A DNA stretch of 64,000 bases, from the IMG/VR virus record IMGVR_UViG_3300009370_000017, positions 1-64,000 of that record. One strand, given 5' to 3'. The position numbers and the translations under genes are program-made. Shown in pieces: positions 7,919 to 61,156 of this stretch. The first letter of the stretch is position 1, and every line of letters starts with the position of its first letter. The DNA comes from a virus. The notes below the pieces were generated by a model. The model saw only the letters and a list, made by a program, of their open reading frames with translations. It was not told the origin of the DNA and ran no database searches.

Positions 7919-9253
7919 ATGACATGGATTAATACTAAAACGGTATTCACTTGGAATACTAAGGACAAAAAGTACGAAGAAACTCTTAATGAGGGTTATG
8001 ATTATACTGGTCCTACTGCTGAATGTTTTGGTTGTTTTATAGCAGGAACAGCTGTACCTACCTCAGATGTAACATATGAGTTGATAGAAAATTTAAAAGT
8101 TGGTGATACAGTACTTACAGTTAATACAAATACAAAACCATTCACATTAGAAGAAAATAAAATACTTGAAATAGCTACACCTGTTCATGAGAATATGGTT
8201 GAGATAAAATTTGATGCTAAAATGTTCAAAGATGGTATGCCAACATATAAGTATAGTTTAGATGAAGCAAAACCATCTCCCTCTAAGATAGCAGTTGGTC
8301 CGAAGAAATTTCCAGAGTTCTGGCTTGAAGTTTCAGAACTAGATAAACTTTCTGATGATGAGAAAGAAGCAGAGTTTAATAAATATATTGACGCCACTTG
8401 GAAGGATTTAGTAAATACAAATACATTTGATCACCCATATTTGGTAAAAAATAAAGGTTGGTGTTCATATAAACCAAGTTTAACTAAAGAAACATATAGT
8501 ATGGATGTTGGTCAGCTTGAAGTTGGTGATATTTGTTATGTGCTCAATCCTGTAAGGGGAAGAAGTCCTTTTACTGAGGTAAAGATTGTTAGTATTGAAG
8601 AAAAAAATGAAGAAACCCAAACATATAACTTAGCTAGTGTTGAAAATAATCATAATTATTTAGCTAATGGTGTATTAGTTCACAATAAAGAAAGTTTGGG
8701 TGGTGAAGATGTAACTATTTTAAGTAGTTCTGTTGACCACGCTGATGGAGAAGTACATGCTTCTATGTCAATTGATGATAAAGTTTTAGCAGCTAGTATT
8801 TCAGGTTTACCTGATACAGATGTAGCATCAGAATTTTTATTGTGGGAATATACGGGCAGTGATATTGCTTCTCAAATTACATTAGTTACTGCTTCAGTTG
8901 ATTATATTATGTCTTCTTCTCGTAACAATTGGTTAAATATTGATTGTAAAAATGGTAGATCTGATACTTTTAGAATTACACCTGGACACCCATTATTAGT
9001 TAAGAGTGAAAGTTATGGTGAGGGATATGGGCTTCCTGGTTCTACAGGATCAGCAGCACTTACAGGATCTGTTTGGTATTTTGATTATGCAGGAGACATT
9101 AATACAAATTATAAACTTTTAAGTTCTTCATTGGAAGAGGTAGACATTGAATCAATTACACCATATAGTGCGTCTGAATCGTCTAGCTTTTTTAGATTTG
9201 ATATAGAACCACAGGATACATATTTCGTAGATCACATATTAATACATAATTAG
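7919..9253 (+). CDS. Hint-domain (intein-like autoprocessing) protein
   Basis: A 444-residue protein built on a Hint fold, the self-cleaving module of inteins, hedgehog and bacterial intein-like proteins. The N-terminal nucleophile is Cys39 in CFGCFIAGTAV. A block-B-like FDHPYLV lies mid-domain, and the domain closes with NHNYLANGVLVHN (about 240-252). The residue after that Asn is Lys, not Cys, Ser or Thr, so normal protein splicing is not expected; cleavage or ligation to another nucleophile is possible. A second, degenerate half-module follows, with GHPLLVK near 359 and DTYFVDHILIHN as the last residues of the protein, without its own cysteine. It may process or attach a modified peptide or virion protein. 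Located in the centre of the modification cassette. Confidence 0.82.
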   Translation: MTWINTKTVFTWNTKDKKYEETLNEGYDYTGPTAECFGCFIAGTAVPTSDVTYELIENLKVGDTVLTVNTNTKPFTLEENKILEIATPVHENMVEIKFDAKMFKDGMPTYKYSLDEAKPSPSKIAVGPKKFPEFWLEVSELDKLSDDEKEAEFNKYIDATWKDLVNTNTFDHPYLVKNKGWCSYKPSLTKETYSMDVGQLEVGDICYVLNPVRGRSPFTEVKIVSIEEKNEETQTYNLASVENNHNYLANGVLVHNKESLGGEDVTILSSSVDHADGEVHASMSIDDKVLAASISGLPDTDVASEFLLWEYTGSDIASQITLVTASVDYIMSSSRNNWLNIDCKNGRSDTFRITPGHPLLVKSESYGEGYGLPGSTGSAALTGSVWYFDYAGDINTNYKLLSSSLEEVDIESITPYSASESSSFFRFDIEPQDTYFVDHILIHN

Positions 9254-10900: not shown

Positions 10901-11849
10901 AGATATTTTATATGAAGATCAAGCGTGGAAAACTGTTAAGTTTTTATTAGATGTAAAAAAAATATCTAATGAGGTTGTAGATATGCACAATATAGAATCT
11001 ATAAAGCAATTAAATGTTTCAAGTGATGATATATGTTTTGCTAGATTTGGTCATCATTTTGATGATAAGATAGCAACTAATAAAGCATATGATGTATTAA
11101 CTCAAAAATTTAATAAAATATATCCTTCAAAAGACGCATATTATTATTATGATGATAAATTAAAGCAATATGAATTTATGTTAGAAAATGATATACCTTG
11201 TTTGAAAACATATTATGTAGGTAGTAAAGAAGAGATAGAAAAATTAAATATAAAATTTCCTATAGTTACTAAAAAAACTTGGGGGGCTGGAACTGAACAA
11301 GTTAATAAGTGGGATGATTATGAATCTATTGTTGATAATAAAGATACTCGAAGTTGGACAGGGGGATCTATATTTCCATGTTTAGTTCAAGAATATAAAG
11401 ATGTAGATTATGATATTAGAGTTAGAATTTTAAACTCTAAAGTTTTCTTTACTAAAAGAATGCACGAGTTTAAAACAAAAAATAAAGATAATTTTCCATA
11501 TGGTACAAAAGAGATTCTTAAAAAAGATAGAATAAAATATCATTTACCACCATATGAAGTTCCTGTAGCATTACCAATAAATGATTTAGCAGAAGTAGAA
11601 GATATTATACCTATAGTAGAAAAATTACATAAGATTCAAAATGAAAAATTGAATAGTAATTTTGTGGTGTGGGATATTCTTAGAACAAATGAAGGAATAA
11701 AAATTCTTGAATTTAGTCATGTTACAGTATATAAAAGTTTTCCACAAATTTATTATGATATAGAATATAAAGAAGCAAATAAATTAACAATAAAAAATCG
11801 TGAACATTTTTTTTATTTGTATAACGAAATATTAAAAGGATTAATATGA
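10881..11849 (+). CDS. RimK-like ATP-grasp ligase
   Basis: A 322-residue ATP-grasp protein. The core reads KQYEFMLENDIPCLKTYYV (about 95-113, domain start), FPIVTKKTWGAGTEQV (about 127-142, ATP-binding Lys and glycine loop), CLVQEYKDVDYDIRVRIL (about 172-189, the QEY and DxR motifs), and NFVVWDILRTNEGIKILEF near 265-283 (metal-binding Asp and Glu; the usual final Asn is replaced). These enzymes join an amine to an activated carboxylate, as in RimK-type glutamylation or amino-acid ligation. It is the second ATP-grasp ligase in the cassette and, unlike the TTL-like one, resembles the RimK branch. Confidence 0.82.
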   Translation: MKFYLHKDILYEDQAWKTVKFLLDVKKISNEVVDMHNIESIKQLNVSSDDICFARFGHHFDDKIATNKAYDVLTQKFNKIYPSKDAYYYYDDKLKQYEFMLENDIPCLKTYYVGSKEEIEKLNIKFPIVTKKTWGAGTEQVNKWDDYESIVDNKDTRSWTGGSIFPCLVQEYKDVDYDIRVRILNSKVFFTKRMHEFKTKNKDNFPYGTKEILKKDRIKYHLPPYEVPVALPINDLAEVEDIIPIVEKLHKIQNEKLNSNFVVWDILRTNEGIKILEFSHVTVYKSFPQIYYDIEYKEANKLTIKNREHFFYLYNEILKGLI

Positions 11850-13411
11850 AGAAAGTTATTATAGTTGGTGGTGGATTTGCAGGTTACTTAACAGCGTTGT
11901 TTTTAAATAAAAAATTTCCTAAATTAAAAATTGATATAATAAAATCATCAGATAAAGAACAAATTTCTGCTGGAGAACAAACAGGCAAAGAACAACTACA
12001 ATTGTTTTTTGAATCATTAGGAATTGAAGAAACTGAATGGTTTAGTAGAACAAAATCTTTTTTAAAAATAGGTAATTCTTTTGTTGGGTGGGGAAACCGT
12101 GAAAATTTTGATCCTCGAGTTGGTGGACCAGATGTAGTTAATCATAGTTTTGTAATGGAAAATAAATTATTACCTTTACTTAGGAATGGTGGTGGTATGA
12201 AATCCGTAAAGGATTCTATGAAATATAATGATAAGTTACATACTGAATTATATCAAAATAGTTTTTTAGAAACACCCATAGATAATACGGATGATTATAT
12301 AGATAGTTTTAAAAAACACTTTAAAAATAGTTTTTTTAATAGAAAGAATAATAGAGCCATAGCTCATATGCATGATTGGTTAGAGATAGGTAAATTTATA
12401 GAAACTAAGTTTGATGATAATGTTAAAATAATTACTGATCATATAACTGATGTGGTTGTAGATAAAAAAAATAATACTATAGAATATCTTGTTAATAAAG
12501 ATAAAGAAAAGATTAAAGCAGATCACTACGTAGATTGTACAGGTATTAGTAGAATTTTGATTTCTAAACTTAGTAAAGTTGTAGATATTAGTGATGAATA
12601 TCCTGTAAATAGTGCCGTATTTGGTCCAGTAGAATATATAGATAGAACTAAAGAGATGGTGCCAACCTTATATACTACTGCTTTTAAAAATGGTTATTCA
12701 TTTAAAACACCATTACAACATAGGATAGGAACAGGATATGTCTATTCAGATAAGTATATTAGTAAAGATGAAGCAATAGATGAGATAAATGATTATTGGG
12801 ATGGTAGATTTAAGTCAGATCAAGTTAATCATTTAAAATGGACTCCATCTTATGTAGTTAAACCTTTTCAGAAAAATTGTAGCGCTGTAGGATTAGCAGG
12901 ACAATTTGATTGTCCAATGGAATCTACAGTATTTACTCAGATATCAACTGCTCTTCAACAATTAGGAAATTATTTAAATAGAGATAATAAATTATTATAC
13001 ATGAATCGTTCTGATATAAGAGATGAAGATATGTTAAATTATTGTAATACTTGGACTGAATATACTTTTCATAATACAAGACATTTTAAACAAATGATGT
13101 TTTATACTACAAATAGAGATGATAGCGAATTTTGGAAGAATATTAAAACACTTAATTATTCTGATATTTTTTATAAAAAATTAAGTTTCTTTTTAGACAA
13201 TTCATTTGATTATATAATAGAAAATAGAAATAAGTTTCCTGATTATACTCCACCAACAAATTTTAATATTAATGAAGATAGATTTTGGAGAGTATATCAA
13301 AAAGGATTTAAAGGATATTTTGATTATATGGGAATAAGGGGTGTAGGACATAGTATGATATTAGATGTTCATAATTGGTTAATGATTCTTGCGTATAAAA
13401 AATACATTTAA
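11846..13411 (+). CDS. tryptophan-halogenase-family flavoprotein
   Basis: A 521-residue FAD-dependent protein of the tryptophan-halogenase family. The N-terminus has the dinucleotide-binding loop VGGGFAG (7-13), followed by SAGEQTGKEQL in the place of the family's 'GEat.p' segment. DCTGISRIL (FAD contact) and NGYSFKTPLQHRIGTGYVYS (the ipl/r.g.GyvYs segment) follow. The usual WxWxIP signature is not intact (YSFKTPL). Halogenases of this family are known in cyanophages (for example VirX1). It could halogenate an aromatic residue or small molecule, or act as another flavin oxygenase. Overlaps the preceding gene by four bases; last gene of the cassette. Confidence 0.87.
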   Translation: MKKVIIVGGGFAGYLTALFLNKKFPKLKIDIIKSSDKEQISAGEQTGKEQLQLFFESLGIEETEWFSRTKSFLKIGNSFVGWGNRENFDPRVGGPDVVNHSFVMENKLLPLLRNGGGMKSVKDSMKYNDKLHTELYQNSFLETPIDNTDDYIDSFKKHFKNSFFNRKNNRAIAHMHDWLEIGKFIETKFDDNVKIITDHITDVVVDKKNNTIEYLVNKDKEKIKADHYVDCTGISRILISKLSKVVDISDEYPVNSAVFGPVEYIDRTKEMVPTLYTTAFKNGYSFKTPLQHRIGTGYVYSDKYISKDEAIDEINDYWDGRFKSDQVNHLKWTPSYVVKPFQKNCSAVGLAGQFDCPMESTVFTQISTALQQLGNYLNRDNKLLYMNRSDIRDEDMLNYCNTWTEYTFHNTRHFKQMMFYTTNRDDSEFWKNIKTLNYSDIFYKKLSFFLDNSFDYIIENRNKFPDYTPPTNFNINEDRFWRVYQKGFKGYFDYMGIRGVGHSMILDVHNWLMILAYKKYI

Positions 13412-18436: not shown

Positions 18437-21229
18437 ATGAAAAACAAACGTAATCTAATCTCATTGGTAATAACATTTCTAATGCCTATGTTCATTTATG
18501 GACAAAGTGTTAGTGGTACGGTTGCTGATGAGGCAGGGAATCCTTTGGCTGGAGCTAATGTAGTTGTACAAGGAACTGATTTGGGTGCCGCTTCTTTGGA
18601 AGATGGTACTTATTCGATTAAAATCGGAGAAGGTTCACATACACTAATAGCTTCTGTTATCGGGTATGAATCATCTTCACAAACAGTAGATGTTAGTGGA
18701 GATATTAGTCTCGACTTTAGCTTAGCGGTTTCCGCAGTCGAGATGTCAGCATTGGAAGTTTTGGCTTCCCGTGCAGGCGAAAAAACACCTGTTGCTTATA
18801 CTACGGTAGAAAAAGCAGATATGGAATTCCGTCTTGGTAGTCAAGACCTTCCAATGGCGCTTAATCTAACACCATCAGTATATGCTACGCAACAAGGTGG
18901 TGGTGCGGGTGATGCTCGTATCAATGTTCGAGGTTTTAATCAACGGAATGTAGCAGTAATGATTAATGGAGTACCACAAAATGATATGGAAAACGGTTGG
19001 GTTTATTGGTCCAATTGGGATGGTGTAGCAGATGCTGCACATTCTATCCAGATGCAACGTGGTTTAAGTGCTGTTAATTTAGCTACACCTTCCATTGGTG
19101 GAACTATGAACATAATTACAGACCCTACCTCTCACATAAAGGGTGGTAAGGTAAAACAAGAAGTTGGTGCTGGTGATTTTCTTAAAACTACAGTAAACTA
19201 TAATACTGGCTTGATAGGTGATAAATTTGCCTTGAGTGGTACAGTAGTACGTAAAACTGGTGGTGGAATCATTGACAAAACGTGGACAGATGCTTGGGCA
19301 TATTACTTTGGTGCAAGTTACGCACTAAATGCTGATAACCGATTTGAATTATACGCAATCGGTGCGCCACAGCGACACGCACACAATCTATATAAACAGA
19401 ATATTGGTGCATATGATGCTGATTTTGCTGCAAGTATAGATGGATATGATACTGAAGCACTTGGTGAAGATGGTAAGTTCAAGGATGTTGGACGTACATT
19501 TAATCAAAATTGGTCTCCAGTAGACCCATCATATACAGGTAAACAATACTATTATATGTATGGTGCTAAAACAGTAGCAAGACACGATCCCAACTTTATT
19601 AACGAAAGAGAAAATTTCTTTCACAAGCCTTTAGTAAACCTAAATCATTTTCTAACTATTAATGACAAAACAATGTTAAGTTCAGTATTGTATTGGAGTG
19701 GTGGTTCAGGTGGTGGTACAGGTACTTATGGTAGGATTCCTACTATGGATGCTGATGGTAATCTTGGTGATGATGACTATAAATTTTATTATGGTCGTTC
19801 TCCCTGGACACGTGATTGGAATGCTCTTATCGCTATGAATAGTGGTGATTCTGATACAGTTTATGTAGACAAAAGAGTAATCACACGCACACATGGTATT
19901 GATAATAATCAATCTGTAGGTATTTTGAGAAATAGCATTAATCGTCAGAATACATATGGCCTTATTTCTAAACTTAATTATGATGTAAGTGATGAACTTC
20001 AATTACAATTAGGTATAGATTGGAGAACTGCTGGTATAGAACACGCACGTGAAGTACGTGATCTAATGGGTGGTGATTATTATGTGGATTATGCTGATGA
20101 TAATGTACCTGATGGTAAAAGAGTTGGATTAGGTGATATAATCGCTTATCATAACTCAACCACAGTTGATTGGTTAGGTGGATTCTTACAAGGAGCTTAT
20201 GCTTCAGGTCCACTTTCAGCCTATGGTATGGTAGGATTATCACAGATTGGATATTCATATCAAGACCATTTTACTGTAGCCGATGAGAAGATTGTAGCAG
20301 ATCCTATTTCCACTTTACAATGGAAAGGTGGGGCAATGTATGATGTTACTGATAACGTTTCAGTTTTTGGTAATTTTGGTATTGTTGAAAAGCCACCAAT
20401 TATGGATAATGTAATCTATTATGATGGTACGGTTGCTTCAGATCCTGCAAATGAAAGATTTGTAAGTTCAGAAGCTGGTGCTCACTACGCGACGGATAAA
20501 GTAGCAGTTAAAGTGTCTGCATATAATACAGATTGGAAAGACAGAAACCTTACCAAATCTGTAACAAGCGGACAAGGTTCAAGCGGTGATACTGATGTGA
20601 TTTTCCTTTCGGGGATAAATCAGAATCATAAAGGTGTTGAAGTTGAAGCTTCTACACAAGTACTTGATGTACTTAACTTACAAGCTATAGTAAGTCTTGG
20701 TACTTGGAAGTTTGTAGGTGATGCAGCAGGTAACTATCAAGAAGATGAGTTTAACGAAGAAGGTCAAGTTATCGGACAGACAACTACACCTTATTCTTAC
20801 GCACTTGATGGTTTGTTTGTTGGTGATATGCCTCAAACATCTTACGCACTTGTTGGAACGCTTACACCAATTAAAGGTCTAAAAATGCAAGCAGTATACA
20901 AACAGTATGATAATAATTATGCTGATTGGAGTCCTGACGCTCGTGAGTATGATGGCTCAGATGCTGGTGCAGATAGAGAACAAGTATGGATGGCACCTGG
21001 ATATTCCAGAGTTGACTTACATGCTTCATATGCTCTACCTTCAATTGGTGGTATGGATTTTACCGCATTTGCTCATGTATTTAATGCAACAGATGCAACA
21101 TACATTCAAGATGCAGTAGATCATAGTCAGTATAATAGCTACGGAGATAAAACTCACGCAGCACACAACGCTGAAGTTTTTCTTGGAACACCAAGATACT
21201 TTAACGCAGGAATTTCTGTAAATTTCTAA
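18437..21229 (+). CDS. TonB-dependent outer-membrane receptor (SusC/CarboxypepD-reg type)
   Basis: A full-length 930-residue TonB-dependent receptor, an energised outer-membrane channel for siderophores, vitamins, glycans or peptides. Signal peptide MKNKRNLISLVITFLMPMFIYGQ (1-23). A carboxypeptidase-regulatory-like domain follows at 24-100 (SGTVADEAGNPLAGANVV). The plug lies at about 115-235 (LNLTPSVYATQQGGGAGDARINVRGF, then IGGTMNIITDP), and the barrel at about 240-930 ends in a terminal Phe (GISVNF), as outer-membrane barrels do. No frameshift or gap is seen. It is richer in G+C than nearby phage genes, so recent capture from the host is likely. A structured leader precedes it and a G+C-rich hairpin follows. 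TonB, ExbB and ExbD are not in the window, so host energy would be used. Confidence 0.95.
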   Translation: MKNKRNLISLVITFLMPMFIYGQSVSGTVADEAGNPLAGANVVVQGTDLGAASLEDGTYSIKIGEGSHTLIASVIGYESSSQTVDVSGDISLDFSLAVSAVEMSALEVLASRAGEKTPVAYTTVEKADMEFRLGSQDLPMALNLTPSVYATQQGGGAGDARINVRGFNQRNVAVMINGVPQNDMENGWVYWSNWDGVADAAHSIQMQRGLSAVNLATPSIGGTMNIITDPTSHIKGGKVKQEVGAGDFLKTTVNYNTGLIGDKFALSGTVVRKTGGGIIDKTWTDAWAYYFGASYALNADNRFELYAIGAPQRHAHNLYKQNIGAYDADFAASIDGYDTEALGEDGKFKDVGRTFNQNWSPVDPSYTGKQYYYMYGAKTVARHDPNFINERENFFHKPLVNLNHFLTINDKTMLSSVLYWSGGSGGGTGTYGRIPTMDADGNLGDDDYKFYYGRSPWTRDWNALIAMNSGDSDTVYVDKRVITRTHGIDNNQSVGILRNSINRQNTYGLISKLNYDVSDELQLQLGIDWRTAGIEHAREVRDLMGGDYYVDYADDNVPDGKRVGLGDIIAYHNSTTVDWLGGFLQGAYASGPLSAYGMVGLSQIGYSYQDHFTVADEKIVADPISTLQWKGGAMYDVTDNVSVFGNFGIVEKPPIMDNVIYYDGTVASDPANERFVSSEAGAHYATDKVAVKVSAYNTDWKDRNLTKSVTSGQGSSGDTDVIFLSGINQNHKGVEVEASTQVLDVLNLQAIVSLGTWKFVGDAAGNYQEDEFNEEGQVIGQTTTPYSYALDGLFVGDMPQTSYALVGTLTPIKGLKMQAVYKQYDNNYADWSPDAREYDGSDAGADREQVWMAPGYSRVDLHASYALPSIGGMDFTAFAHVFNATDATYIQDAVDHSQYNSYGDKTHAAHNAEVFLGTPRYFNAGISVNF

Positions 21230-24382: not shown

Positions 24383-24577
24383 ATGACAAAAGAAGAGATT
24401 CTAACAGAATTAGAATCAATTGGTTATCAACTAGATTCAACATCTAATGGTTTTGTTGAAAATGATTCTGATTTAAGTGGTGCAAAAACTGATTTAAATT
24501 GTTTGATTGACAATTTAGAAAAAAAAGTGATCGCAGAAAATTTAAAATATGAAGATATTCAGATAGATGGGTGCTGA
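24383..24577 (+). CDS. hypothetical protein, 64 residues
   Basis: Not recognised. Acidic, soluble and helical. AGGAG precedes the ATG. The C-terminus overlaps the next frame by up to 11 bases. No motif or membrane segment is visible. Confidence 0.65.
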   Translation: MTKEEILTELESIGYQLDSTSNGFVENDSDLSGAKTDLNCLIDNLEKKVIAENLKYEDIQIDGC

Positions 24578-24989
24578 TATGAGATTACCAAGTAAAAAAG
24601 AAGTAAAAGCTATTAAAGAATCTAGTAGAAAAAAAGTTTATTCGAAATCTGATAAAGTTGTAGCACAGATGGAAGAAGAATGGCCAGAAATGACTAAAGA
24701 GTTTAAAAGATTACAACATGAACAATATGTGTTGTTCTTACATAAGCAACATGATTATGGTCCAGGTAATATAAGTGTTGGCACACAATTAAAAACAGCT
24801 GAAGATATTAAACTATCTTTAATGGGTTTGTGGTTTAGAATGAATGATAAGATTCAAAGATTGAAAACTTTATTGATGAGTGGTAGAAATAATGCAGTAG
24901 AGGGCGAACCTATGGAAGATGCTTTTCTCGATGTATCTAATTATGGTATAATGGCAACAATTGTAAAAAATGGAAAGTGGGGTAAATAA
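24567..24989 (+). CDS. DUF1599 / Nmad1-like protein
   Basis: A 140-residue protein resembling the 'nucleotide modification associated domain 1' (DUF1599) family. The family-like segments are LFLHKQHDYGPGNISVGTQL (about 56-75), LSLMGLWFRMNDKIQRLKTLL (about 83-103), and EPMEDAFLDVSNYGIMATI (about 113-131). Members are found next to phage nucleotide- or base-modification genes, but the reaction is not settled. The start could be the ATG at 24567 or the one at 24579; the first overlaps the previous gene. It agrees with other hints of DNA modification in this genome. Confidence 0.75.
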   Translation: MGADMRLPSKKEVKAIKESSRKKVYSKSDKVVAQMEEEWPEMTKEFKRLQHEQYVLFLHKQHDYGPGNISVGTQLKTAEDIKLSLMGLWFRMNDKIQRLKTLLMSGRNNAVEGEPMEDAFLDVSNYGIMATIVKNGKWGK

Positions 24990-30112: not shown

Positions 30113-31315
30113 TTGGGATTTAACATAGAAGGTTTTTTCGATATTTCTACAGATTTTCCTTATGATGAGGAAAAACAATCGTTTATTGATCACATGAACT
30201 CATTAAAAGAAATGACAGTTCAAGAACAAACACTTTATAAAAAATGGAAAGAGTGGAATTATGATCCTTATGGTATGACACAAAAGGGTACTAAGATAGA
30301 TTTAGCTAAAAAACAATTGTGGATGCCAAAAGATATTAATGATTTAGAGGGAACTTTTGAAGAGATAAAAAGTATAATACCAATAGCAATACCTGTAAAA
30401 CAAGGTGATGCTAAAGCAAATGATGCTTGGTCAGTTACACGAAGATTAATTCACACAATGGAATTCACAGCCAATCCTGGCAGAAATCTTAAATTTTATG
30501 TTAAAGATAAAACAACAAACAAAATACTTGGGTTAATATGTTTAGGTAGTGATGTTATTGCATTAAGAGTTAGAGATAAATGGATTGGTTGGTCAAAAGA
30601 AAATAGATTAGATGGTGGGTTATTAAATCATACTGCTATTGCTACTACAATTTGTTCTACACAACCATTCGGATATAATTTCTTAGGTGGTAAGTTGATT
30701 GCTACTATGGTAAATTCTAAAGTAGTTCGTGATGAATGGGAAAAAGTTTATAATCAAAAATTAGTTGGATTTACAACAACATCACTTTATGGTATACATT
30801 CGATGTATAATGGAATTCCACATTGGAAGGGATTAGGAGAATCTACAGGAAGAATTGGTTTAAAACCTGATGATGAATATTATGATAAGTGGCATGAATG
30901 GATTAAAGAAAATAGAGCAGAAGAATATAAAAAGAAAATAGAATCTAAAGGTGGAAAATCAGGACCTGTAACAGGAATCAAACAAAGAATTTTAAGTATT
31001 ATATTAAATGAAATTGGTATATCACAAACTAAATACCAACATGGATTTAAACGTGGTGTATTTTTTTCAGAGTTATATGATAATACAAGACCATTTCTAA
31101 GAGGTGAGATAAAAGAAGATGAATTGGTTTTGAAAAAAAGATTAGAAAATGATGTAGATGGTATAACAAAATGGTGGTGTAAAAAGGGATTAAAAAGATA
31201 TTTTAAGTTATACGAACAAAATAGATTAAAACCTGAAATGTTATTCTATGCAGATATGATAGGTAAATCTTGGGAAGAAGCAAAAGAAAAATACTTAGGA
31301 GAAGTTGGTAGATGA
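30113..31315 (+). CDS. DUF4338 protein, DruA-like
   Basis: A 400-residue protein resembling DUF4338, the domain of DruA from the Druantia anti-phage system. The family-like block runs from about residue 120 to 260: FTANPGRNLKFYVKDKTTN, GLICLGSDVIALRVRDKWIG, then HSMYNGIPHWKGLGESTGRI. The biochemical role of DruA is unknown. The start is a TTG at 30113 with AAAGG upstream; no ATG is close. It overlaps the next gene by four bases (ATGA). In a phage it could serve inter-phage competition or an unrelated role; other Druantia proteins are not in the window. Confidence 0.8.
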   Translation: MGFNIEGFFDISTDFPYDEEKQSFIDHMNSLKEMTVQEQTLYKKWKEWNYDPYGMTQKGTKIDLAKKQLWMPKDINDLEGTFEEIKSIIPIAIPVKQGDAKANDAWSVTRRLIHTMEFTANPGRNLKFYVKDKTTNKILGLICLGSDVIALRVRDKWIGWSKENRLDGGLLNHTAIATTICSTQPFGYNFLGGKLIATMVNSKVVRDEWEKVYNQKLVGFTTTSLYGIHSMYNGIPHWKGLGESTGRIGLKPDDEYYDKWHEWIKENRAEEYKKKIESKGGKSGPVTGIKQRILSIILNEIGISQTKYQHGFKRGVFFSELYDNTRPFLRGEIKEDELVLKKRLENDVDGITKWWCKKGLKRYFKLYEQNRLKPEMLFYADMIGKSWEEAKEKYLGEVGR

Positions 31316-32538
31316 GTAAACCCACAAATTATATAGGTTATCACGTAGGTGATGTTGATGATGAATATGATGGTTCAGCTGAACATCCAAATTGGGAAGA
31401 TATTTACAACAACTCAAATAAATTAGAATGTATCTTAGGTAATGAACCAATCTCATATCAAGCATTTGTTTATGAATATGTATACGATTATGTAACTAAT
31501 AATATGCAAAGAACCATAATAGAATATGGGACAAAAGAAGATATGTACAATTTAGAAAGAGATTTGCATAATAAGTTCGATGTGGCAAAATCAGAAAAGT
31601 ATTTTAATTTAGTAAAAAGTGGTGGTGCATATAAGACAATCAAAGTAGATGACTTGGAAGAATTAAAAAAACGTATTAAAAAAGGTGAATTTACAAAAAA
31701 TAAAAAAGAAAAGATAGAAGATTTATATAATGAATTAATTCCAAAAAGACTTCAAAACAGAACATCAGAAGACGCTTCGTTTGTAAGGGATATTAGAGAT
31801 GATATTAAATTTGAAGAGAGTACAGACTATTGTGAACCAATTAGAGTAAAAGTTAATATAGATGGTTCAAGAAAAATGTTTGATGGTAACACTACTATTA
31901 TGGCTGCTTATACTGCAAGAAAAAAGGTAAAAGATGGAAGCATTAGGGTAGATGAAATACCTTATGAGATTGCAAAGCTATATACAGATGATGAGTTTAA
32001 CGAATTGGGTGTTTTATTAAATGAGAAACCAAAAGTAAGAAAACGACACGCTTCAAAAGAAGACGTTGCTAGTGTGATATGGAAAAGATTTATGAATAAT
32101 CATACACCAATCAAAGACAAAAAAAATAAAGAATATATTGTAAAGACTGGACATAGAACAACAGATATTTATAAAATTGTTAATTCTTGGTTTCAAAAAG
32201 GTGGACAAGTTGGAACTTACATTAATTATCAACTTGAACATTACAAAAAGAAATTGGAAGAGGTGGTAAAAAATGCTACAAATTCTGAAACAAAAGTTTT
32301 TTCTTTTTCATCTGCTAAATTTAGAGACGAGGATGTAAATAAATGGTTAGGTGAAAACACTAATTATGGAAATAAAAAACCAGAAAAAAATAAACTATTA
32401 ATAGTAATTTACCATTCTAATTCAGTAGCAGAAACTAAATGGGATGATGCTATGGCACAAAAGAAAAAAGAAATTAAGTATTTAGCCAGATTAACAGGTG
32501 TTAATTTTATTGGTTTTAAATATATGGATACACAATAA
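31312..32538 (+). CDS. GIY-YIG-like plus ParB-like domain protein
   Basis: A 408-residue protein. Its first 110 residues look like a GIY-YIG nuclease-type domain: NYIGYHVGDVDDEYDGSAEH, then YNLERDLHNKFDVAKSEKYF, then NLVKSGG. Around residue 180-205, IRVKVNIDGSRKMFDGNTTI resembles the ParB/sulfiredoxin-like nucleotide-binding segment (DGNxR/T). The C-terminal 200 residues are basic and helical. A DNA-targeting role is plausible. It is translationally coupled to the DruA-like gene, so the two may work together. Catalytic residues of GIY-YIG cannot be confirmed by eye. Confidence 0.62.
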   Translation: MSKPTNYIGYHVGDVDDEYDGSAEHPNWEDIYNNSNKLECILGNEPISYQAFVYEYVYDYVTNNMQRTIIEYGTKEDMYNLERDLHNKFDVAKSEKYFNLVKSGGAYKTIKVDDLEELKKRIKKGEFTKNKKEKIEDLYNELIPKRLQNRTSEDASFVRDIRDDIKFEESTDYCEPIRVKVNIDGSRKMFDGNTTIMAAYTARKKVKDGSIRVDEIPYEIAKLYTDDEFNELGVLLNEKPKVRKRHASKEDVASVIWKRFMNNHTPIKDKKNKEYIVKTGHRTTDIYKIVNSWFQKGGQVGTYINYQLEHYKKKLEEVVKNATNSETKVFSFSSAKFRDEDVNKWLGENTNYGNKKPEKNKLLIVIYHSNSVAETKWDDAMAQKKKEIKYLARLTGVNFIGFKYMDTQ

Positions 32539-32554
32539 TAATAAAGGTTACAAT

Positions 32555-33346
32555 ATGAAACAACTTACAGCAGAACAAATCCAAGAGAATTGGATTGCAC
32601 TTCTAAATTTAATAAAAGATACATTTGAAGGTGAACGACTTGAAAAGTTGTTAAAAATGTATGAGTATTTTGAAGAGAGAATGATAGTAGCGCCAGCAAG
32701 TGGTAAAGAACATTATCACAATGCACACGTTGGTGGTTATGTAGAACACGTCATTCATGTTACAGATTTGGCAGTGAAGTTAAGAAAAATGTGGGAAGCA
32801 GAAGGGGCTACAATAGATTTTACAGAAGAAGAAGTTATCTTTGCAGCTTTACATCACGACTTAGGTAAAGTAGGTGATATGGATAATGATTACTATGTAC
32901 CACAAGATTCAGAGTGGCATAGAAAAAATCGTGGTGAAATCTTTACACATAATGGTCAACTATCTTATATGACAGTTACAGATAGAGCCATTTTCTTGTT
33001 GAATCAGTTTGGTATCACAATGAGTGAAAATGAATACATTGGTTTAAGACTTACTGATGGTTTGTATGAAGAAGCTAATAAAAACTATTATATTAGTTGG
33101 AATCCTGATTGGGCATTGAAGTCTAATATAGCATATGTACTTCATGCAGCAGATAGTATGGCTACTCATATTGAATATGATGTGTGGAAACGTGGTGATA
33201 TAGAAGAAGTTGAAGCTAAACAGGAAAAATTAACTTCATTAAAGAAAGCATTGACGGTTGATGATAATGAAAAGAAACCACAATCGCCTGAATTATCAAA
33301 AAAATCTCAAGATTTATTTGATGAACTATTTGGAGATAAAAAATGA
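32555..33346 (+). CDS. HD-domain phosphohydrolase
   Basis: A 263-residue HD-domain protein. Metal ligands are visible in AHVGGYVEHVIHVTDLAV (about 60-77), ALHHDLGKVGDMD (about 102-114, the HD pair) and VLHAADSMATHIEYD (about 198-212). HD enzymes cleave phosphate esters of nucleotides or RNA. The ATG at 32555 is chosen because the preceding 19 codons of the longer frame overlap the previous gene and lack a ribosome site. It lies just before the late sigma gene and could act in nucleotide turnover or host takeover. Confidence 0.85.
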   Translation: MKQLTAEQIQENWIALLNLIKDTFEGERLEKLLKMYEYFEERMIVAPASGKEHYHNAHVGGYVEHVIHVTDLAVKLRKMWEAEGATIDFTEEEVIFAALHHDLGKVGDMDNDYYVPQDSEWHRKNRGEIFTHNGQLSYMTVTDRAIFLLNQFGITMSENEYIGLRLTDGLYEEANKNYYISWNPDWALKSNIAYVLHAADSMATHIEYDVWKRGDIEEVEAKQEKLTSLKKALTVDDNEKKPQSPELSKKSQDLFDELFGDKK

Positions 33347-51993: not shown

Positions 51994-52545
51994 ATGTACG
52001 GAATGATAAATAAGGCAATAAGAACCTTAGTTATACGAGAAGCAGGAGAAGAGGTTTGGGATCAAGTACTTGAAACTTCTGGAATAGACGAAGATGTTTA
52101 TGAGGATTTAGAAGGATATGATGATGGAGTAACATTCTCATTAGTTGGAGCAGTTTCAGAAACATTAGGAGTTCCACCTGGAGATGTGTTAGAAATGTTC
52201 GGTGTTTATTGGGCTACAGATGTAGCACCAAAAGGATACGGAGAATATTTCAACGCGTTTGGGAATGACTTTAAGAGTTTCGTAGCAGGTTTAGATGAAA
52301 TGCACGTAAGGATTACAAGTATGTTACCAAGTTTAGTTCCACCTGCATTTAGTATAGAAGAATTGGAAGAAGATCATTTCAAGATACATTATGTATCACA
52401 ACGAGATGGATTAGCACCATTAGCAGTGGGTATGTTAAAGGGAATTGCTCAACACTTTGGTGGAGAGGCAGACATAACACAAATAGAATATAAAGGTACT
52501 GATGACCATGATGTGTTTGAGGTACGATTTAAAGAGAATGAATAA
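51994..52545 (+). CDS. H-NOX (haem nitric-oxide/oxygen binding) domain protein
   Basis: A 183-residue stand-alone H-NOX protein, a haem-based sensor of nitric oxide or oxygen. The N-terminus MYGMINKAIRTLVIREAGEE matches the family start. The proximal haem ligand is His104 in LDEMHVRITSMLPSLVPPAF (100-119). The haem-propionate contact motif YxSxR is Tyr133, Ser135 and Arg137 in HYVSQRDGL. Length is as in bacterial H-NOX (about 180). In bacteria, H-NOX usually signals to cyclic-di-GMP enzymes or kinases. It shares one base with the MshEN-type gene that follows, a likely partner. I know of no described phage system of this kind. Confidence 0.93.
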   Translation: MYGMINKAIRTLVIREAGEEVWDQVLETSGIDEDVYEDLEGYDDGVTFSLVGAVSETLGVPPGDVLEMFGVYWATDVAPKGYGEYFNAFGNDFKSFVAGLDEMHVRITSMLPSLVPPAFSIEELEEDHFKIHYVSQRDGLAPLAVGMLKGIAQHFGGEADITQIEYKGTDDHDVFEVRFKENE

Positions 52546-53215: not shown

Positions 53216-53656
53216 ATGAATAGGTCAAAATTAATTAAGTTGAGTTTTAAATTATTATGTATTGTGGGATTGTCATTTATATTATGTGGAAATGTTGTAA
53301 ATGGTCAAGACAAAAAACCAAAGGTAGAGATTATCAATGATGATAACTTTAAGAAAAAAGTGGCAAAGGGATTTGTTCTTATTAAATTTACAGCTCCATA
53401 TCAAATGGCTAAACTTGATAATAAATTATTTGATGGTGTAAAGGGATTTGAAGGATGTGTTATTTATATAGTTGACAATTCAGAAGTTAAAAAAGTGGTT
53501 AAGAAACTTAGAATACGAAATTATCCATCAATTGCGTTATTCCATAACGGAAAAAAGAAAGAAGTTTGGAAGGCTGATATGGATGGTGTTGTGGATATTA
53601 ATAATAAAGGAATTAAAAAGGCAATATCAGATGCAATGGCAGGAGATGTATTCTAA
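53216..53656 (+). CDS. periplasmic thioredoxin-fold protein lacking the CxxC
   Basis: A 146-residue protein with a signal peptide (LCIVGLSFILCGNVVNGQ) and a thioredoxin fold: VEIINDDNFKKKVAKGFVLI, then KLRIRNYPSIALFHNGKKKE with the cis-Pro. Where the active site should be, the sequence is FTAPYQMAKL, with no cysteines. It is therefore redox-dead and more likely a binding or chaperone module in the periplasm. Last gene of the envelope and signalling island; its stop overlaps the start of the next small gene. Confidence 0.82.
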   Translation: MNRSKLIKLSFKLLCIVGLSFILCGNVVNGQDKKPKVEIINDDNFKKKVAKGFVLIKFTAPYQMAKLDNKLFDGVKGFEGCVIYIVDNSEVKKVVKKLRIRNYPSIALFHNGKKKEVWKADMDGVVDINNKGIKKAISDAMAGDVF

Positions 53657-55151: not shown

Positions 55152-55484
55152 ATGAAAACAAGATCAAGAAAAAACAAAGGTAAAAGACTTCAAAACGAAT
55201 TCCGAAATCTTTTATTAGAGACATTCAAACAATTAGAACCCGATGACATTCGTTCAGCAATAATGGGAGAATCGGGTGAAGATATCAAATTATCACCAGC
55301 AGCTCGTAAACTCATTCCATATTCATTCGAATGTAAGAATCAAGAAAAACTTAATATATGGGAAGCATTATCTCAAGCTGAAGAAAATAGTGGTATTTCA
55401 TCTCCTGTTTTGATATTTAAAAGAAACAGGAGTAAGACATACGCAGTTTTAGAAATAAAGGATTTTATAGACCTTATTAAATGA
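55152..55484 (+). CDS. PD-(D/E)XK nuclease, Holliday-junction-resolvase-like
   Basis: A 110-residue protein: a basic start (MKTRSRKNKGKRLQNEF), an acidic strand SGEDIKLSPAARKLIPYSFE, and the ExK-type core FECKN (about 71-75) followed by a helix and NIWEALSQAEENS. The order (Asp, then E-x-K on a strand) is that of PD-(D/E)XK nucleases; phage members are often labelled resolvases. It overlaps the primase gene by four bases, which suits a role in DNA replication or recombination. Catalysis is inferred. Confidence 0.78.
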   Translation: MKTRSRKNKGKRLQNEFRNLLLETFKQLEPDDIRSAIMGESGEDIKLSPAARKLIPYSFECKNQEKLNIWEALSQAEENSGISSPVLIFKRNRSKTYAVLEIKDFIDLIK

Positions 55485-56416
55485 GTCAAAAGCTATTAAA
55501 TTTACTGTCTAGGGTTTTAAATAGTGAAGCAAGAAAAACAGGACAACAAGACGAATATCTGTTTTGGTCTCCTTTTATAACCCACCATAAACCGAAATTA
55601 CAACTTAACACAAAAACTTATAAGTGGCATTGTTGGGTTTCAGATCAAGGTGGATATAATTTTTATCAATTATTCAAAAAGATTGGTGCTTTACAGAAAC
55701 ACTTTGATGAATTGCGTGATATTGTTGGTAAACCTTCATATAAACGACAAAGTTATAAAACCGACGTTTCTAAAAAAGAAGTTAAAATAGAATTACCAAA
55801 AGAATTTATTCCATTAAGTAATGGTTCAAATAAAGATCCAGAATATAAAAATGCTGTGAGATATTTGAAACGAAGAGATATCACAAAAAGAGAAATATTG
55901 AAATATAATATTGGTTATTGTGAGGAAGGTTTATATAGATATAGAATTATAATTCCATCTTATGATAAAGATAATGAATTAAATTATTATGTTGGAAGAG
56001 ATTATTATGATGGAACTATGAAATATAAAAATCCAAGAGTGAGTAAAGATGTAGTTGGATTTGAATCTATGGTTGATTGGAATCAACCTGTTATATTATG
56101 TGAGGGTGTATTTGATGCTATAGCAATAAAAAGAAATGCTATTCCATTATTCGGTAAAACCTTACCACCAAAATTATTAAAAAGATTTATTGAACATAAA
56201 GTGAAAAGTGTTTATTTGATTTTAGATTCAGACGCTTTTAAAAATAGTATTAAAATTGTGAATAAATTAAAATCTATTGAAGTTGAAGTACATTTAATAA
56301 GATTGGAAGATAAAGATCCAAGTGAACTTGGTTTTGAAAAAACTATGAATCTTATAAAACAAACAGATACACCATTATCGTTTTCAGATTTAATGAAACT
56401 TAGATTGGGTGCTTAG
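55481..56416 (+). CDS. DnaG-like primase (TOPRIM)
   Basis: A 311-residue primase-like protein that would lay RNA primers for lagging-strand synthesis, like T4 gp61. The N-terminus has a degenerate CHC2-type zinc-ribbon region (FWSPFITHHKPKLQL, then WHCWVSDQGGYNFYQL). A helical linker and YRIIIPSYDKDNELNYYVGR (about 158-177) follow. The TOPRIM fold has ILCEGVFDAIAI at about 204-215 (catalytic Glu) and VYLILDSDAF near 245 (DxD). The cysteine set of the zinc site is incomplete. Next to a nuclease and the Mre11-Rad50 gene. Confidence 0.88.
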   Translation: MSQKLLNLLSRVLNSEARKTGQQDEYLFWSPFITHHKPKLQLNTKTYKWHCWVSDQGGYNFYQLFKKIGALQKHFDELRDIVGKPSYKRQSYKTDVSKKEVKIELPKEFIPLSNGSNKDPEYKNAVRYLKRRDITKREILKYNIGYCEEGLYRYRIIIPSYDKDNELNYYVGRDYYDGTMKYKNPRVSKDVVGFESMVDWNQPVILCEGVFDAIAIKRNAIPLFGKTLPPKLLKRFIEHKVKSVYLILDSDAFKNSIKIVNKLKSIEVEVHLIRLEDKDPSELGFEKTMNLIKQTDTPLSFSDLMKLRLGA

Positions 56417-57750
56417 TGAACATATACGATTTTTCAAAACAAAAAGATGTTGATAAGGAATACAAGTATAAAATTCTTGTATATCCAAACATTACTTATA
56501 TGCAAGATTTGGAAAAGGATTCGTATGTAGTAGTTTTACGTAATGTTATAAAAGAATTAAACAAGATTCGAGATGATATTCATTGGACTATCTTATCACC
56601 TACTGAAATACAATCATTAGTATTTGAAAATACAACTCAGATACCTATAAATCTTCCATCATATCCAAACGCTATGAGAACACATTTTAATTTTACAGAA
56701 ATCAAAAATGTATTAAAATGGAAGTCTACTGATTATGATGTTTTATATTCTCATCTTCCCGAACATACTGATCAGTTAGTAAATCTATTTCATAATAATA
56801 CAAATCTAACACCGAAAGTAGTTGGGTATTGTCATTGGTATGAAGTTCCAGAAAATACTGCTTATAATAAAACTATGTTGATGGCAAACTTTGCAGGTAT
56901 GTTACGTATGGATGAGTGTGGTGTTAATTCTGAATGGTTAAAGAGTCTTGTGTTAGAAAAAGCAAGTGATGTTTATCAAGATACCTATGTTAATATGTTA
57001 AAAGATATTATACAACCACATTATTTAGGTATTGATAAAGTAGATATGAAATCTAAACCAAAAGGTAAGAGTATTATATTCAATCATAGAGATAATGAAT
57101 ATACAGGATTTAGGTGGTTTATTAAACAGATGGATAAGCTGTATGAAAAACGACAAGACTTTACAGTATACACAACATTAGCAGATATAAATAGACCATA
57201 TGCTAATAGAATGAGAATACATAGTAGAGACGAGTATTTAAAGTTTTTAAAGACTATGAGAGTGGGTGTAGGTTGTTTTAATAAGTACTCAGCGTGGAGT
57301 ATAGCTACGACAGATTCATTGAGCATGGGTGTTCCATATGTGTTACCAAACAAGTTATGTTATCCTGAGATGGTTGGTAAAGACTATCCGTTGTTGTATG
57401 ATAATGATTTTTTAGATAAGATAGAAAAAGTTTTAGATAGTGATAATGCTAGAGATAATGTAGTTAATTATCTTAAAAAAGATATAGAAACTTTTAAATG
57501 GGAATCAAGAGTTCCAACTTGGTTTAATAATTGGAAGTTTTTAGAACCAAATAGTTTTGATATGATTGGTGATGGTAGCGAATCATATAAAAAAATAGTA
57601 GATTATATACACAAAGAAAATTCAGTTACTAAAAAACAAATATTGGAATATATGGGTTGGGGTGTTAGAATTTCATTTAATTCATATAGAAATAGGCTTA
57701 GAACTGAAAAAACCATTAAATTTACAAAGGATAGATATGAAGTTATATAA
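56416..57750 (+). CDS. GT-B-type glycosyltransferase with winged-helix C-terminus
   Basis: A 444-residue protein with GTG start at 56416 overlapping the primase stop. The layout of two Rossmann-like halves, with VVGYCHWYEVPENTAYN (about 137-153), IIFNHRDNEYTGFRW (about 219-233) and the donor-side block WSIATTDSLSMGVPYVLP (about 294-311), resembles GT-B glycosyltransferases. The last 55 residues (SYKKIVDYIHKENSVTKKQI, then FNSYRNRLRTEKTIKF) look like a winged-helix DNA-binding domain. A sugar transferase with a DNA-binding tail suggests glycosylation of modified DNA bases, as in T4. No base-hydroxymethylating enzyme is in the window. Confidence 0.75.
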   Translation: MNIYDFSKQKDVDKEYKYKILVYPNITYMQDLEKDSYVVVLRNVIKELNKIRDDIHWTILSPTEIQSLVFENTTQIPINLPSYPNAMRTHFNFTEIKNVLKWKSTDYDVLYSHLPEHTDQLVNLFHNNTNLTPKVVGYCHWYEVPENTAYNKTMLMANFAGMLRMDECGVNSEWLKSLVLEKASDVYQDTYVNMLKDIIQPHYLGIDKVDMKSKPKGKSIIFNHRDNEYTGFRWFIKQMDKLYEKRQDFTVYTTLADINRPYANRMRIHSRDEYLKFLKTMRVGVGCFNKYSAWSIATTDSLSMGVPYVLPNKLCYPEMVGKDYPLLYDNDFLDKIEKVLDSDNARDNVVNYLKKDIETFKWESRVPTWFNNWKFLEPNSFDMIGDGSESYKKIVDYIHKENSVTKKQILEYMGWGVRISFNSYRNRLRTEKTIKFTKDRYEVI

Positions 57751-57798: not shown

Positions 57799-58023
57799 AT
57801 GTCTAACGATATTTGGGAATTTGGGGAAGGATATCATAAGGTTCATACGGAATCTATTGATGTTGCCAAAAAAATTGCCAAAATATGTAATACTGACAGT
57901 TCTACCGAATACGTTAAAGATGGAAACGTCTTTGCTTGGGACTTTGTAGTCGAAGATTCTTTACTTCCAAAAGTTAAGAAAATCGTAAGAGGACATATTG
58001 CAGCTAAAAGTTCCGTTTCGTAA
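57799..58023 (+). CDS. hypothetical protein, 74 residues
   Basis: An acidic, soluble protein starting MSNDIWEFGEGYHKV, with GGGAG upstream. Not recognised. Its last 26 bases overlap the start of the Mre11-Rad50 gene in another frame. The neighbouring genes are all in DNA metabolism. Confidence 0.72.
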   Translation: MSNDIWEFGEGYHKVHTESIDVAKKIAKICNTDSSTEYVKDGNVFAWDFVVEDSLLPKVKKIVRGHIAAKSSVS

Positions 58024-61000
58024 GCTAAAGTATATACATCACATATCGGATATACAAATCCGAAATCTTAAAAGACATAAAGAATATGAAATAGTCTTTA
58101 ATCGTCTTTATGAAAAGATAAAAGAAAATAGTGATAATGCAGTAGCATATATTGGTGGCGATATAGCGCACTCTAAATGTGATATGTCTCCTGAGTTAGT
58201 AGACCAATTATCAAGGTTATTCAAGAATCTTTCTGATATTGTTCCTACTATTATTATTGCGGGTAATCATGATTGTAATCTAAACAATCGTTCACGTCTT
58301 GATGTTCTAACACCTATAGTTAATAATCTTAATCATCCAAATTTACATTACTTAAAAGATACAGGTATATATAAATGTGCAGATACTTCATTTGTAGTAT
58401 GGGATTGTTGGACAAATGAAAAAGATTTTATAGAAGCTAAAGATGTAGAAGGTGATACTAAAGTAGTTTTATTTCATGGAACGGTAGACAAAGCAGAAAC
58501 AGATTTAGGTTTTAAATTACCCTCTGATGTACATATAAAAAAGTTTAAAGGTTATGATTTAGGATTACTTGGTGATATTCATAAACGCCAATTTATTAAC
58601 AAAGAAGAAACTATTGCATATTGTGGTTCTTTAGTTCAACAAAATCATGGAGAAGATATTGGTAAAGGTTATTTACTTTGGGATGTTCCAAATAGAAAAT
58701 CAGAGTATATTGAAATACCAAATGATTTTGGATATTATACAATAAACATTGACAATGGAAAACTACCAACAGATTTACATGATCTTCCAAAGAAAGCTAG
58801 ATTAAGAGTAAGGGTTTCTAATACATCAGGAACACAACTTAAAAAATGTTTAGCAGTAATACAACACAAGCATGGTATACAAGAAGTAGTAGTTAATAGA
58901 ACAGATATATTAACTGATAGAGTTAGAGATGGCAATAAATTAGATTTAGGTGATGTAAATAATCCTGATTTTCAATATGAAATGATTGAAGAATATCTTA
59001 ATAATAATTTTTTAGTTGATAATGAAACACTTAAAAAAATAAAAGATATTAATGATGAATTAAATGGTTCTTTACCTATAGATAATATAACAAGAAATGT
59101 AGATTGGGTACTTAAACGATTTGAATTTTCTAATATGTTTAGTTATGGTGAAGATAACATAGTAGACTTTACTGCATTAAATGGTACGATTGGTTTGTTT
59201 GCTGCAAATGCAAGTGGTAAATCATCTTTATTAGATGCATTATGTTTTTGTTTATTTGATACATCAACAAGAACTTATACTGCAAATTCAGTTTTAAATA
59301 ATAAAAGAAAGTCTTTTAAATGTAAAGTGTGGTTTGAAGTTAATAATCAAGAGTATGTAATTGAGAGAATAGCAAAGAAAAAAAGAAATGGTCATGTGAA
59401 AGTTAATGTAGATTTTTATACAATTGATGATAGTGGTGATCTAATTTCACTTAATGGAGATCAAAGAAGAACAACTAATTTAAATATTCGACAAGTTGTA
59501 GGAACATTTGATGATTTTATATTAACAACTCTTTCAGCACAAAATGCAAATACTGTTTTTATAGATAAAACTCAAAAAGAAAGAAAAGAATTACTTGCTC
59601 AGTTTATGGGATTGGGTATTTTTGATAAATTATATACTATGGCAAATGAAGAGATATCTGAAGTTCAAGCAGTATTAAAAAACTTTAGTAAAACAAATTA
59701 TGATGAACAACTTGCTGATGCAGAAAATCAAATTGTAATATTAAAAGATGATTTAAAACAAAAAAGAAGTAATTATAGGGAAATAGAAAAGAAAGTACAT
59801 AAGTTACAAGAAGGAATATTAAATAAAAGTAAAAAAATTAGACCAATAGATGAAACTTTAACTGATATAAATCTTTTACAATCTGAATTAAAAGATAATC
59901 AAGAATTACACACACAAACTCAAATTTTATTTCAAGAGGCTTTACATCAAATTTCTCATATTGAGGAAACCAAAGAATTTACTATTAAACAATTAGAAGA
60001 ATTAAAAAAAGAAAATGTATTACAGAAATATAGTGAATTAGAATCTTTTAAATATGATTATGAACAAATTAATATTGATATAGAAAATTTGAAAAAAGAA
60101 GTTAAACATAAGTTAGATAAGATTAGAAAGCTTGGTGATTTAGAATACGATCCTGATTGTAAATTTTGTATGAATAATGTCTTTGTGAAAGATGCAAGAG
60201 AAACAAAAAAATTATTACAAGAAGATAAAGTTAAATCAGGTAAATTAATATCAAAAATAAATCAGTTAGACTCTCAAATAAAAGATTATGAACCGATTGA
60301 AAAAAAGAAAGAACAATATGATAAGTGTGGAGAATTATTTGAACAATTAAATAATGAATTAACAACAATTGAAGTAAAGAGAGATCATTTAGGAGAAAAG
60401 ACTTCTTATCTTGATGAAAAAATTGAAAATGTACAAGAGAATATTCAAAAATATTATGGACAAGAGAAAGATATTATTTTTAATAATACAATAAAAACAG
60501 AAATTGAAGTATTAGAAACTAAACTTGATACGGAAAGTTTAGAATTAAAAGGTGCAGATAAAAAATTAAAAGAAACAGAGATAGAACTTAAAGTTTCAGA
60601 GAATCAAAAGAAAGAAATTATTAAGTTTATAGAAGAAGTTCAAGAATTAGAAGAAAAGCATGGAGCATATAAATACTATCTTGAAGCAGTTAAAAGAGAT
60701 GGTGTTCCATATGAGTTAATTAGTAAAGCATTACCTGCTATTGAGGGTGAGGTAAATAATATACTATCACAGTTAGTTGATTTCACAATGACTTTTGAAA
60801 TGGATGGTAAAAATATTAATAACTATATTGTATATGATACAGACAATACTTGGCCTCTTGATTTGAGTAGTGGTATGGAACGATTTATATCATCACTTGC
60901 TATTCGTGTAGGATTAATAAACGTATCTAACTTACCAAGAGGTAACTTCCTTGCTATTGACGAGGGCTGGGGAACGATGGATAGTGAGAATATTAATTCA

Positions 61001-61156
61001 GTATATAATTTATTTCAATATCTTAAAACACAATTTCAATTTACATTGATTGTATCTCATATTGATACAATGAGAGATGCAGTAGATACTTTATTAGAAA
61101 TATCAAAAGAAGGAGATTACAGTTCTGTATATTTTGAACCTGTAAAATCAGCCTGA
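57998..61156 (+). CDS. single-chain Mre11-Rad50 (SbcD-SbcC) recombination nuclease
   Basis: A 1052-residue fusion of the two subunits that T4 encodes separately as gp47 and gp46, used in double-strand-end processing. The nuclease half has HHISDIQIRNLKRHKEY (13-29), IGGDIAH, IIAGNHDC (about 87-94), VLFHGTVD and LLGDIHKRQ. The ATPase half starts near 365: Walker A FAANASGKSS (about 402-411), a long coiled coil with a zinc-hook CKFC (about 719-722), signature DLSSGMERFISSL (about 953-965) and Walker B FLAIDEGWGTMD (about 984-995). The first metal motif has Gln where His is usual (DIQ). TTG start at 57998 with AGAGG upstream, overlapping the previous gene. Confidence 0.93.
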   Translation: MQLKVPFRKLKYIHHISDIQIRNLKRHKEYEIVFNRLYEKIKENSDNAVAYIGGDIAHSKCDMSPELVDQLSRLFKNLSDIVPTIIIAGNHDCNLNNRSRLDVLTPIVNNLNHPNLHYLKDTGIYKCADTSFVVWDCWTNEKDFIEAKDVEGDTKVVLFHGTVDKAETDLGFKLPSDVHIKKFKGYDLGLLGDIHKRQFINKEETIAYCGSLVQQNHGEDIGKGYLLWDVPNRKSEYIEIPNDFGYYTINIDNGKLPTDLHDLPKKARLRVRVSNTSGTQLKKCLAVIQHKHGIQEVVVNRTDILTDRVRDGNKLDLGDVNNPDFQYEMIEEYLNNNFLVDNETLKKIKDINDELNGSLPIDNITRNVDWVLKRFEFSNMFSYGEDNIVDFTALNGTIGLFAANASGKSSLLDALCFCLFDTSTRTYTANSVLNNKRKSFKCKVWFEVNNQEYVIERIAKKKRNGHVKVNVDFYTIDDSGDLISLNGDQRRTTNLNIRQVVGTFDDFILTTLSAQNANTVFIDKTQKERKELLAQFMGLGIFDKLYTMANEEISEVQAVLKNFSKTNYDEQLADAENQIVILKDDLKQKRSNYREIEKKVHKLQEGILNKSKKIRPIDETLTDINLLQSELKDNQELHTQTQILFQEALHQISHIEETKEFTIKQLEELKKENVLQKYSELESFKYDYEQINIDIENLKKEVKHKLDKIRKLGDLEYDPDCKFCMNNVFVKDARETKKLLQEDKVKSGKLISKINQLDSQIKDYEPIEKKKEQYDKCGELFEQLNNELTTIEVKRDHLGEKTSYLDEKIENVQENIQKYYGQEKDIIFNNTIKTEIEVLETKLDTESLELKGADKKLKETEIELKVSENQKKEIIKFIEEVQELEEKHGAYKYYLEAVKRDGVPYELISKALPAIEGEVNNILSQLVDFTMTFEMDGKNINNYIVYDTDNTWPLDLSSGMERFISSLAIRVGLINVSNLPRGNFLAIDEGWGTMDSENINSVYNLFQYLKTQFQFTLIVSHIDTMRDAVDTLLEISKEGDYSSVYFEPVKSA

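Follow-up and report, generated by a model that had tools for sequence, protein, structure and literature searches.

Which molecule receives the sugar from a glycosyltransferase that a phage encodes among genes for DNA transactions? The question arises from a 64-kb stretch of DNA (the window), which comes from a virus record of 69.5 kb (G000). The product of its reading frame at 56416..57750 (plus strand, 444 amino acids, GTG start) had been described as a GT-B-like enzyme with a winged-helix C-terminus, placed between primase and recombination genes and possibly glycosylating phage DNA as the T4 glucosyltransferases do.

The gene family and its enzyme fold

Judged from its sequence, the frame is a real gene, far above chance. 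The GTG start overlaps the TAG stop of the preceding gene by one base (TAGTG), and the placement given in the original prediction was confirmed: the upstream neighbour encodes a DNA primase (55481..56416, plus strand; phrog_47, E 1.3e-37) and the downstream neighbour encodes a recombination nuclease (57998..61156, plus strand; phrog_100 and phrog_77). In the latter, SbcD and SbcC form a single frame of 1052 amino acids, i.e. a fused nuclease-ATPase.

Relatives of the glycosyltransferase in IMG/VR numbered 58 in one scan and at least 358 in another, with approximately 45-78% identity, mostly across the full length, and the contigs that carry them here are viral only and reach 174 kb. By these comparisons the family is cohesive, widespread among phages and previously without a name. 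The usual profile libraries returned only a chance match (Pfam, the sole match at E up to 1, with E 0.6), a best match that was not significant (PHROGs, E 0.073) or zero matches (NCBIfam). A tblastn search of 50,697 phage records also gave zero matches, and thus no relative from an isolate phage, and relatives were not found in a profile-guided scan of 84,980 bacterial and archaeal genomes. Literature searches turned up nothing on the family, on any fusion of a glycosyltransferase with a winged helix, or on the glycosyltransferase of phage HY126 (9ir0). Sequence and architecture suggest that the family is new, yet it appears to be a variant of an already known kind of enzyme.

The GT-B assignment held up in an AlphaFold2 model built with an alignment of 30 relatives (pLDDT 89.3, pTM 0.87). 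The closest solved structures are GT-B enzymes of the GT4 type (7qsg, Z 27.9; BshA, 25.8; MshA, 25.7), and the matches with Z scores of 24-28 cover approximately 320-340 residues within the range 15-381 at 10-15% identity. As modelled, the enzyme part is a GT-B fold of the GT4 type with two Rossmann-like domains. The structural alignment range, the invariant residues and a profile alignment with 7qsg place this catalytic part at residues ~16-381 (56461..57558, plus strand). The profile alignment pairs YSAWSISATDGLSVGVPY with YEGFSLPAVEAMASGTPI, the GT4 EX7E region, in which the second acid corresponds to D300 and is invariant across the aligned members, and the first position varies among them (S, E, D, G or A). 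Also invariant are H113-L-P-E116, H140-W141, N223-H224-R225 and E318. Given the alignment of the EX7E region and the invariance of D300, H140, N223-H224-R225 and E318, the protein likely has an active sugar-transferring core.

Many phage GT4-like enzymes, whose targets are unproven, match the protein structurally as well, which is consistent with a target among the phage virion proteins (baseplate or fibre) or with a surface glycan, the winged helix then serving protein contacts only. We regard such a target as unlikely, and the evidence bearing on it is taken up below with the tail and the gene neighbourhoods.

The C-terminal winged helix

The second part of the protein comprises residues 386-444 (57571..57747, plus strand), delimited by the fold model, structural matches and conservation. 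Structure prediction of the C-terminus bore out the proposed winged helix: when residues 380-444 were modelled alone (47 relatives), the pLDDT was 88 and the order of elements was H-H-H-E-E, and comparison of this model with solved structures (Foldseek, VIA-align) gave matches that are almost all winged-helix domains. Their scores are modest (Foldseek E ~0.05-0.3, Z up to 7.5); values in this range are common for domains of 60 residues. Among them are a Sulfolobus DNA-binding protein, Z-alpha/Z-beta domains, MarR, ROK, FtsK gamma and TFIIF. On the strength of the model, a winged helix makes up the last ~60 residues. Querying solved structures with the sequence profile of the tail was unproductive, and a search of the fetched loci with that profile found no second protein bearing such a tail.

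The tail was found in all 89 of the distinct full-length relatives examined. Its mean net charge is +6.7 (range +2 to +12) versus about -8 for the rest of the protein, and its positional entropy of 1.16 (enzyme part: 1.32) indicates that it is conserved at least equally. The invariant residues W415, Y424, R425, L428, R429, I434 and Y441 include a Y-R-x-x-L-R helix. A conserved positive tail with such an invariant helix argues against a virion protein or surface glycan as the target. Since winged helices bind RNA or proteins too, besides DNA, contact of the tail with DNA is something that we infer.

For this reason an RNA target, e.g. a modified tRNA base, was weighed as well. SelB bound to SECIS RNA is also among the structural matches of the tail, and tRNA queuosine is a known substrate of some GT-B enzymes. 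Against this, the neighbours of the gene are DNA enzymes and not tRNA enzymes, and no QueC was found in 12 records, so we hold RNA to be a highly improbable target.

Gene neighbourhoods in the window and in the relatives

The primase and SbcCD genes were not found near the glycosyltransferase in any fetched relative. These surroundings are, by the gene orders compared, peculiar to the window genome, and as support for a DNA target the primase/recombination context did not survive the comparison.

In most relatives, gene order indicates that the glycosyltransferase is the closing gene of a variable slot. The gene directly after it is, in 73 loci, a homologue of window 32498-33343, and the usual 5' border is a DruA-like (DUF4338) gene, found in the window at 30113..31315 (plus strand; Pfam DruA, 2e-28). 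There the slot is occupied by a gene for a protein that is GIY-YIG/ParB-like by eye (31312..32538, plus strand; homologues in relatives, no Pfam match), and the glycosyltransferase is located elsewhere. Homologues of this protein adjoin the glycosyltransferase in L031, L057, L058, L193 and other loci. Of 32 related records, 30 contain the DruA-like gene. It is no more than three genes away from the glycosyltransferase in 52 of the 101 distinct members, and many of the remaining members are on truncated contigs. In the 44 loci where it can be seen upstream, the two are separated by no gene (10), one (22), two (8) or three (4).

The slot between them holds 37 gene clusters, most without a Pfam match. 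Those with a match comprise DNA-modifying enzymes (N6_N4 and D12 methylases, such proteins also matching UPF0020, and Mom), nucleases and other proteins (EcoRI, GmrSD_N, HNH, endonuclease VII, GHKL ATPase) and glycosyltransferases (the TET-associated TAGT, GT_PLOD and Glycos_transf_1); PADLOC recognized type II methylases among others. In L085, the slot gene that precedes the family glycosyltransferase by two positions encodes TAGT.

Both flanks are constant and the middle varies, as would be seen if the glycosyltransferase and the DruA-like gene were simply core genes on either side of an insertion hot spot, with functions unrelated to the inserts. As the slot may just separate two core genes, its contents need not act together with the glycosyltransferase. 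In isolate cyanophages and pelagiphages, the DruA-like gene lies in or near the replication cassette, and none of the four regions viewed has an annotated glycosyltransferase beside it, which also fits an incidental order. Recurrence of the Mom and PolB association outside the slot (L173, L184 and the L193 clade) speaks against it, and we consider the incidental order, which is compatible with any target, somewhat unlikely.

Two ideas about the DruA-like gene were discarded. An obligatory functional pair with the glycosyltransferase does not hold because, in the four regions viewed, the isolates have the DruA-like gene and no annotated glycosyltransferase next to it, and hhalign gave no support for a relationship between the DruA-like and Mom families, one isolate record labelling its DruA-like gene "mom".

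Of 101 distinct members, 14 carry Mom no more than two genes away from the glycosyltransferase, a distribution that requires at least seven changes on the FastTree phylogeny, and 15 carry PolB at a distance of up to three genes. The L193 clade has the order Mom, glycosyltransferase, GIY-YIG/ParB-like gene (by eye) and PolB. The glycosyltransferase is accompanied by Mom, PolB and a clamp-like gene in L173, and by a DNA methylase, the DruA-like gene and PolB in L184. In L070, the member most closely related to the window protein, Mom and an endonuclease VII-like gene are neighbours of the glycosyltransferase. Separately, we noted three Mom-family genes in a 164.8-kb virus record (G001, the record of L006).

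The Nmad1-like gene cited in the original prediction is present at 24567..24989 (plus strand; DUF1599, PF07659, 27.2 bits at a cut-off of 25, 44 of 61 positions), 31 kb from the glycosyltransferase. In L115, a homologue that scores slightly under the cut-off (23.6 bits) immediately precedes the glycosyltransferase, and in L022 one lies four genes ahead of it; these two placements fit a nucleic-acid target. PF07659 was found in 4 of 18 records.

Other neighbours would suit a virion protein or a glycan as the target. In most relatives, baseplate genes follow the glycosyltransferase at a distance of some genes. Downstream of the family gene in the L099 clade are other glycosyltransferases (by eye), as in glycan loci, and in the L024 clade the gene follows sugar-nucleotide genes (a nucleotidyltransferase, RmlD, a C-methyltransferase and a dTDP-glucose-4,6-dehydratase-like gene). 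Set against these are the recurrent DNA-modification genes and PolB nearby and, in the window, the primase and SbcCD.

Taken together, a nucleic-acid target fits a tail that is universally conserved and positive and DNA-modification neighbours that recur, and since the family often lies beside DNA-modifying and DNA-copying genes, the enzyme probably adds sugar to the phage's own DNA. We therefore favor, as the probable though by no means settled reading, a phage glycosyltransferase directed at nucleic acid, probably DNA. Such an enzyme would draw on a nucleotide-sugar donor, either of host origin or, in one clade, made by a phage-encoded pathway of the dTDP-sugar type, and would transfer the sugar, during or after replication, to a hydroxyl or amine of a base that already carries a modification. 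The winged helix would dock it on the DNA, and the sugar might protect the phage genome against nucleases, among them the restriction-type ones of the same locus.

Several further genes of the window were recorded. A Haem-NO-binding (HNOB/H-NOX) protein is encoded at 51994-52545 (Pfam, 2.3e-45), with no relative in 50,697 phage records, and a thioredoxin-like protein at 53216-53656 (1.9e-8) has a signal-like start and, by eye, no CxxC. The protein at 7919-9253 combines a match to the Ataxin-1 AXH module (1.2e-15) with intein/Hint matches. An ATP-grasp protein of the tubulin-tyrosine-ligase type (6469-7422, 3.6e-26) and a tryptophan halogenase-like gene (11846-13411, phrog_2928, 6.1e-72) are also present. 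The N-terminal part of a 930-aa protein (18437-21229) matches SusC/RagA TonB-linked outer membrane proteins (5.4e-15). From 61432, an open frame of at least 2704 amino acids runs past the window end at 64000 to position 69543 of the record (L060); it has repeats that look PKD-like by eye, and a Hint/intein-like stretch is embedded in it.

Possible acceptors and comparison with known systems

A DNA glycosyltransferase requires a chemical handle on the base. T4 glucosyltransferases act on hydroxymethylcytosine in DNA, and the original prediction drew on this analogy. Genes for a T4-type acceptor were searched for in 12-28 records, which are possibly incomplete. The thymidylate synthase (TS) family (PF00303) was not found in the window record or in the 164.8-kb relative, both of which may be incomplete, and these two records likewise yielded no C5 cytosine methylase, TET/JBP or QueC. 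No C5 cytosine methylase (PF00145) was found in 28 records, with good controls, and TET/JBP (PF12851) gave no match in the records searched, but no control gave a signal there. A 2OG-Fe(II) oxygenase (PF13640) was present in two records only, and Mom in 14 of 32.

In its exact form, the T4 mode would use 5-hydroxymethylcytosine or 5-hydroxymethyluracil made by an enzyme of the thymidylate-synthase type, a narrower version of the DNA reading. It draws support from TS-family genes in five L024-clade records and from upstream genes resembling dNMP kinases in the L024 and L099 clades. The single TS sequence inspected by eye (L061, of the L024 clade) is canonical-looking and keeps the Asn expected of a dUMP enzyme and not of a dCMP hydroxymethylase, so it is probably not a dCMP hydroxymethylase. 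With the TS family not found in the two records named above, and in view of the results for C5 methylase, TET and QueC, the T4 route is unsupported for the window clade, and we consider it quite unlikely. Of the proposed glycosylation of phage DNA, then, the part that finds support is a nucleic-acid target, in keeping with the tail and with neighbours such as Mom, methylases, restriction nucleases, the TET-associated glycosyltransferase and PolB. The T4-type version does not: there was no match to AGT, BGT or TAGT, and no hydroxymethylase of the thymidylate-synthase type was found in the window record or the 164.8-kb relative.

A different handle can be imagined. The glycosyltransferase might perform the constant second step of an undescribed hypermodification whose acceptor is not a hydroxymethylpyrimidine, e.g. 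a Mom adduct or the product of a step linked to Nmad1 or to a DruA-like protein; the winged helix would then present the DNA. In this specific form, we find the proposal very doubtful.

Large-genome environmental phages appear to pair interchangeable DNA-modifying and restriction-type slot genes with one constant glycosyltransferase whose tail is of a DNA-binding type. If it acts on DNA, as we favor, the protein would represent a new family of DNA glycosyltransferases missed by the usual profile libraries, would hint at undescribed base modifications by which common environmental phages are protected against restriction, and might become a tool enzyme for DNA labelling.

Compared with known GT4 enzymes (MshA, BshA, PimA and the 7qsg mannosyltransferase), the window protein shares the GT-B fold over residues 15-381 (Z 24-28) and retains the second acid of EX7E and the PE motif. 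It differs from them in its low identity (10-15%), in the first Glu of EX7E, which is not conserved, and in that its family adds a winged helix and is seen in viral contigs only. T4 AGT and BGT also have the GT-B fold, and share with the protein the proposed role of placing sugar on phage DNA. Unlike them, the window protein has no Pfam match to either family, and hydroxymethylase was not found in its clade; T4 BGT and AGT are absent among the structural matches listed, which excludes nothing. We know of no winged-helix tail in T4 AGT or BGT. TAGT (PF20691) shares the slot with a family member in L085, whereas the window protein has no PF20691 match. In T4-like phages of the RB69/NP type, sugar-modifying genes lie beside a putative DNA glycosyltransferase, and the DNA arabinosyltransferases use an acceptor from a 5-hydroxy-dCMP synthase of the TS family (PMC13390438). 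The 164.8-kb relative differs from these phages in having no TS-family gene, whereas the L024 clade resembles them in that its sugar-nucleotide genes stand beside the glycosyltransferase.
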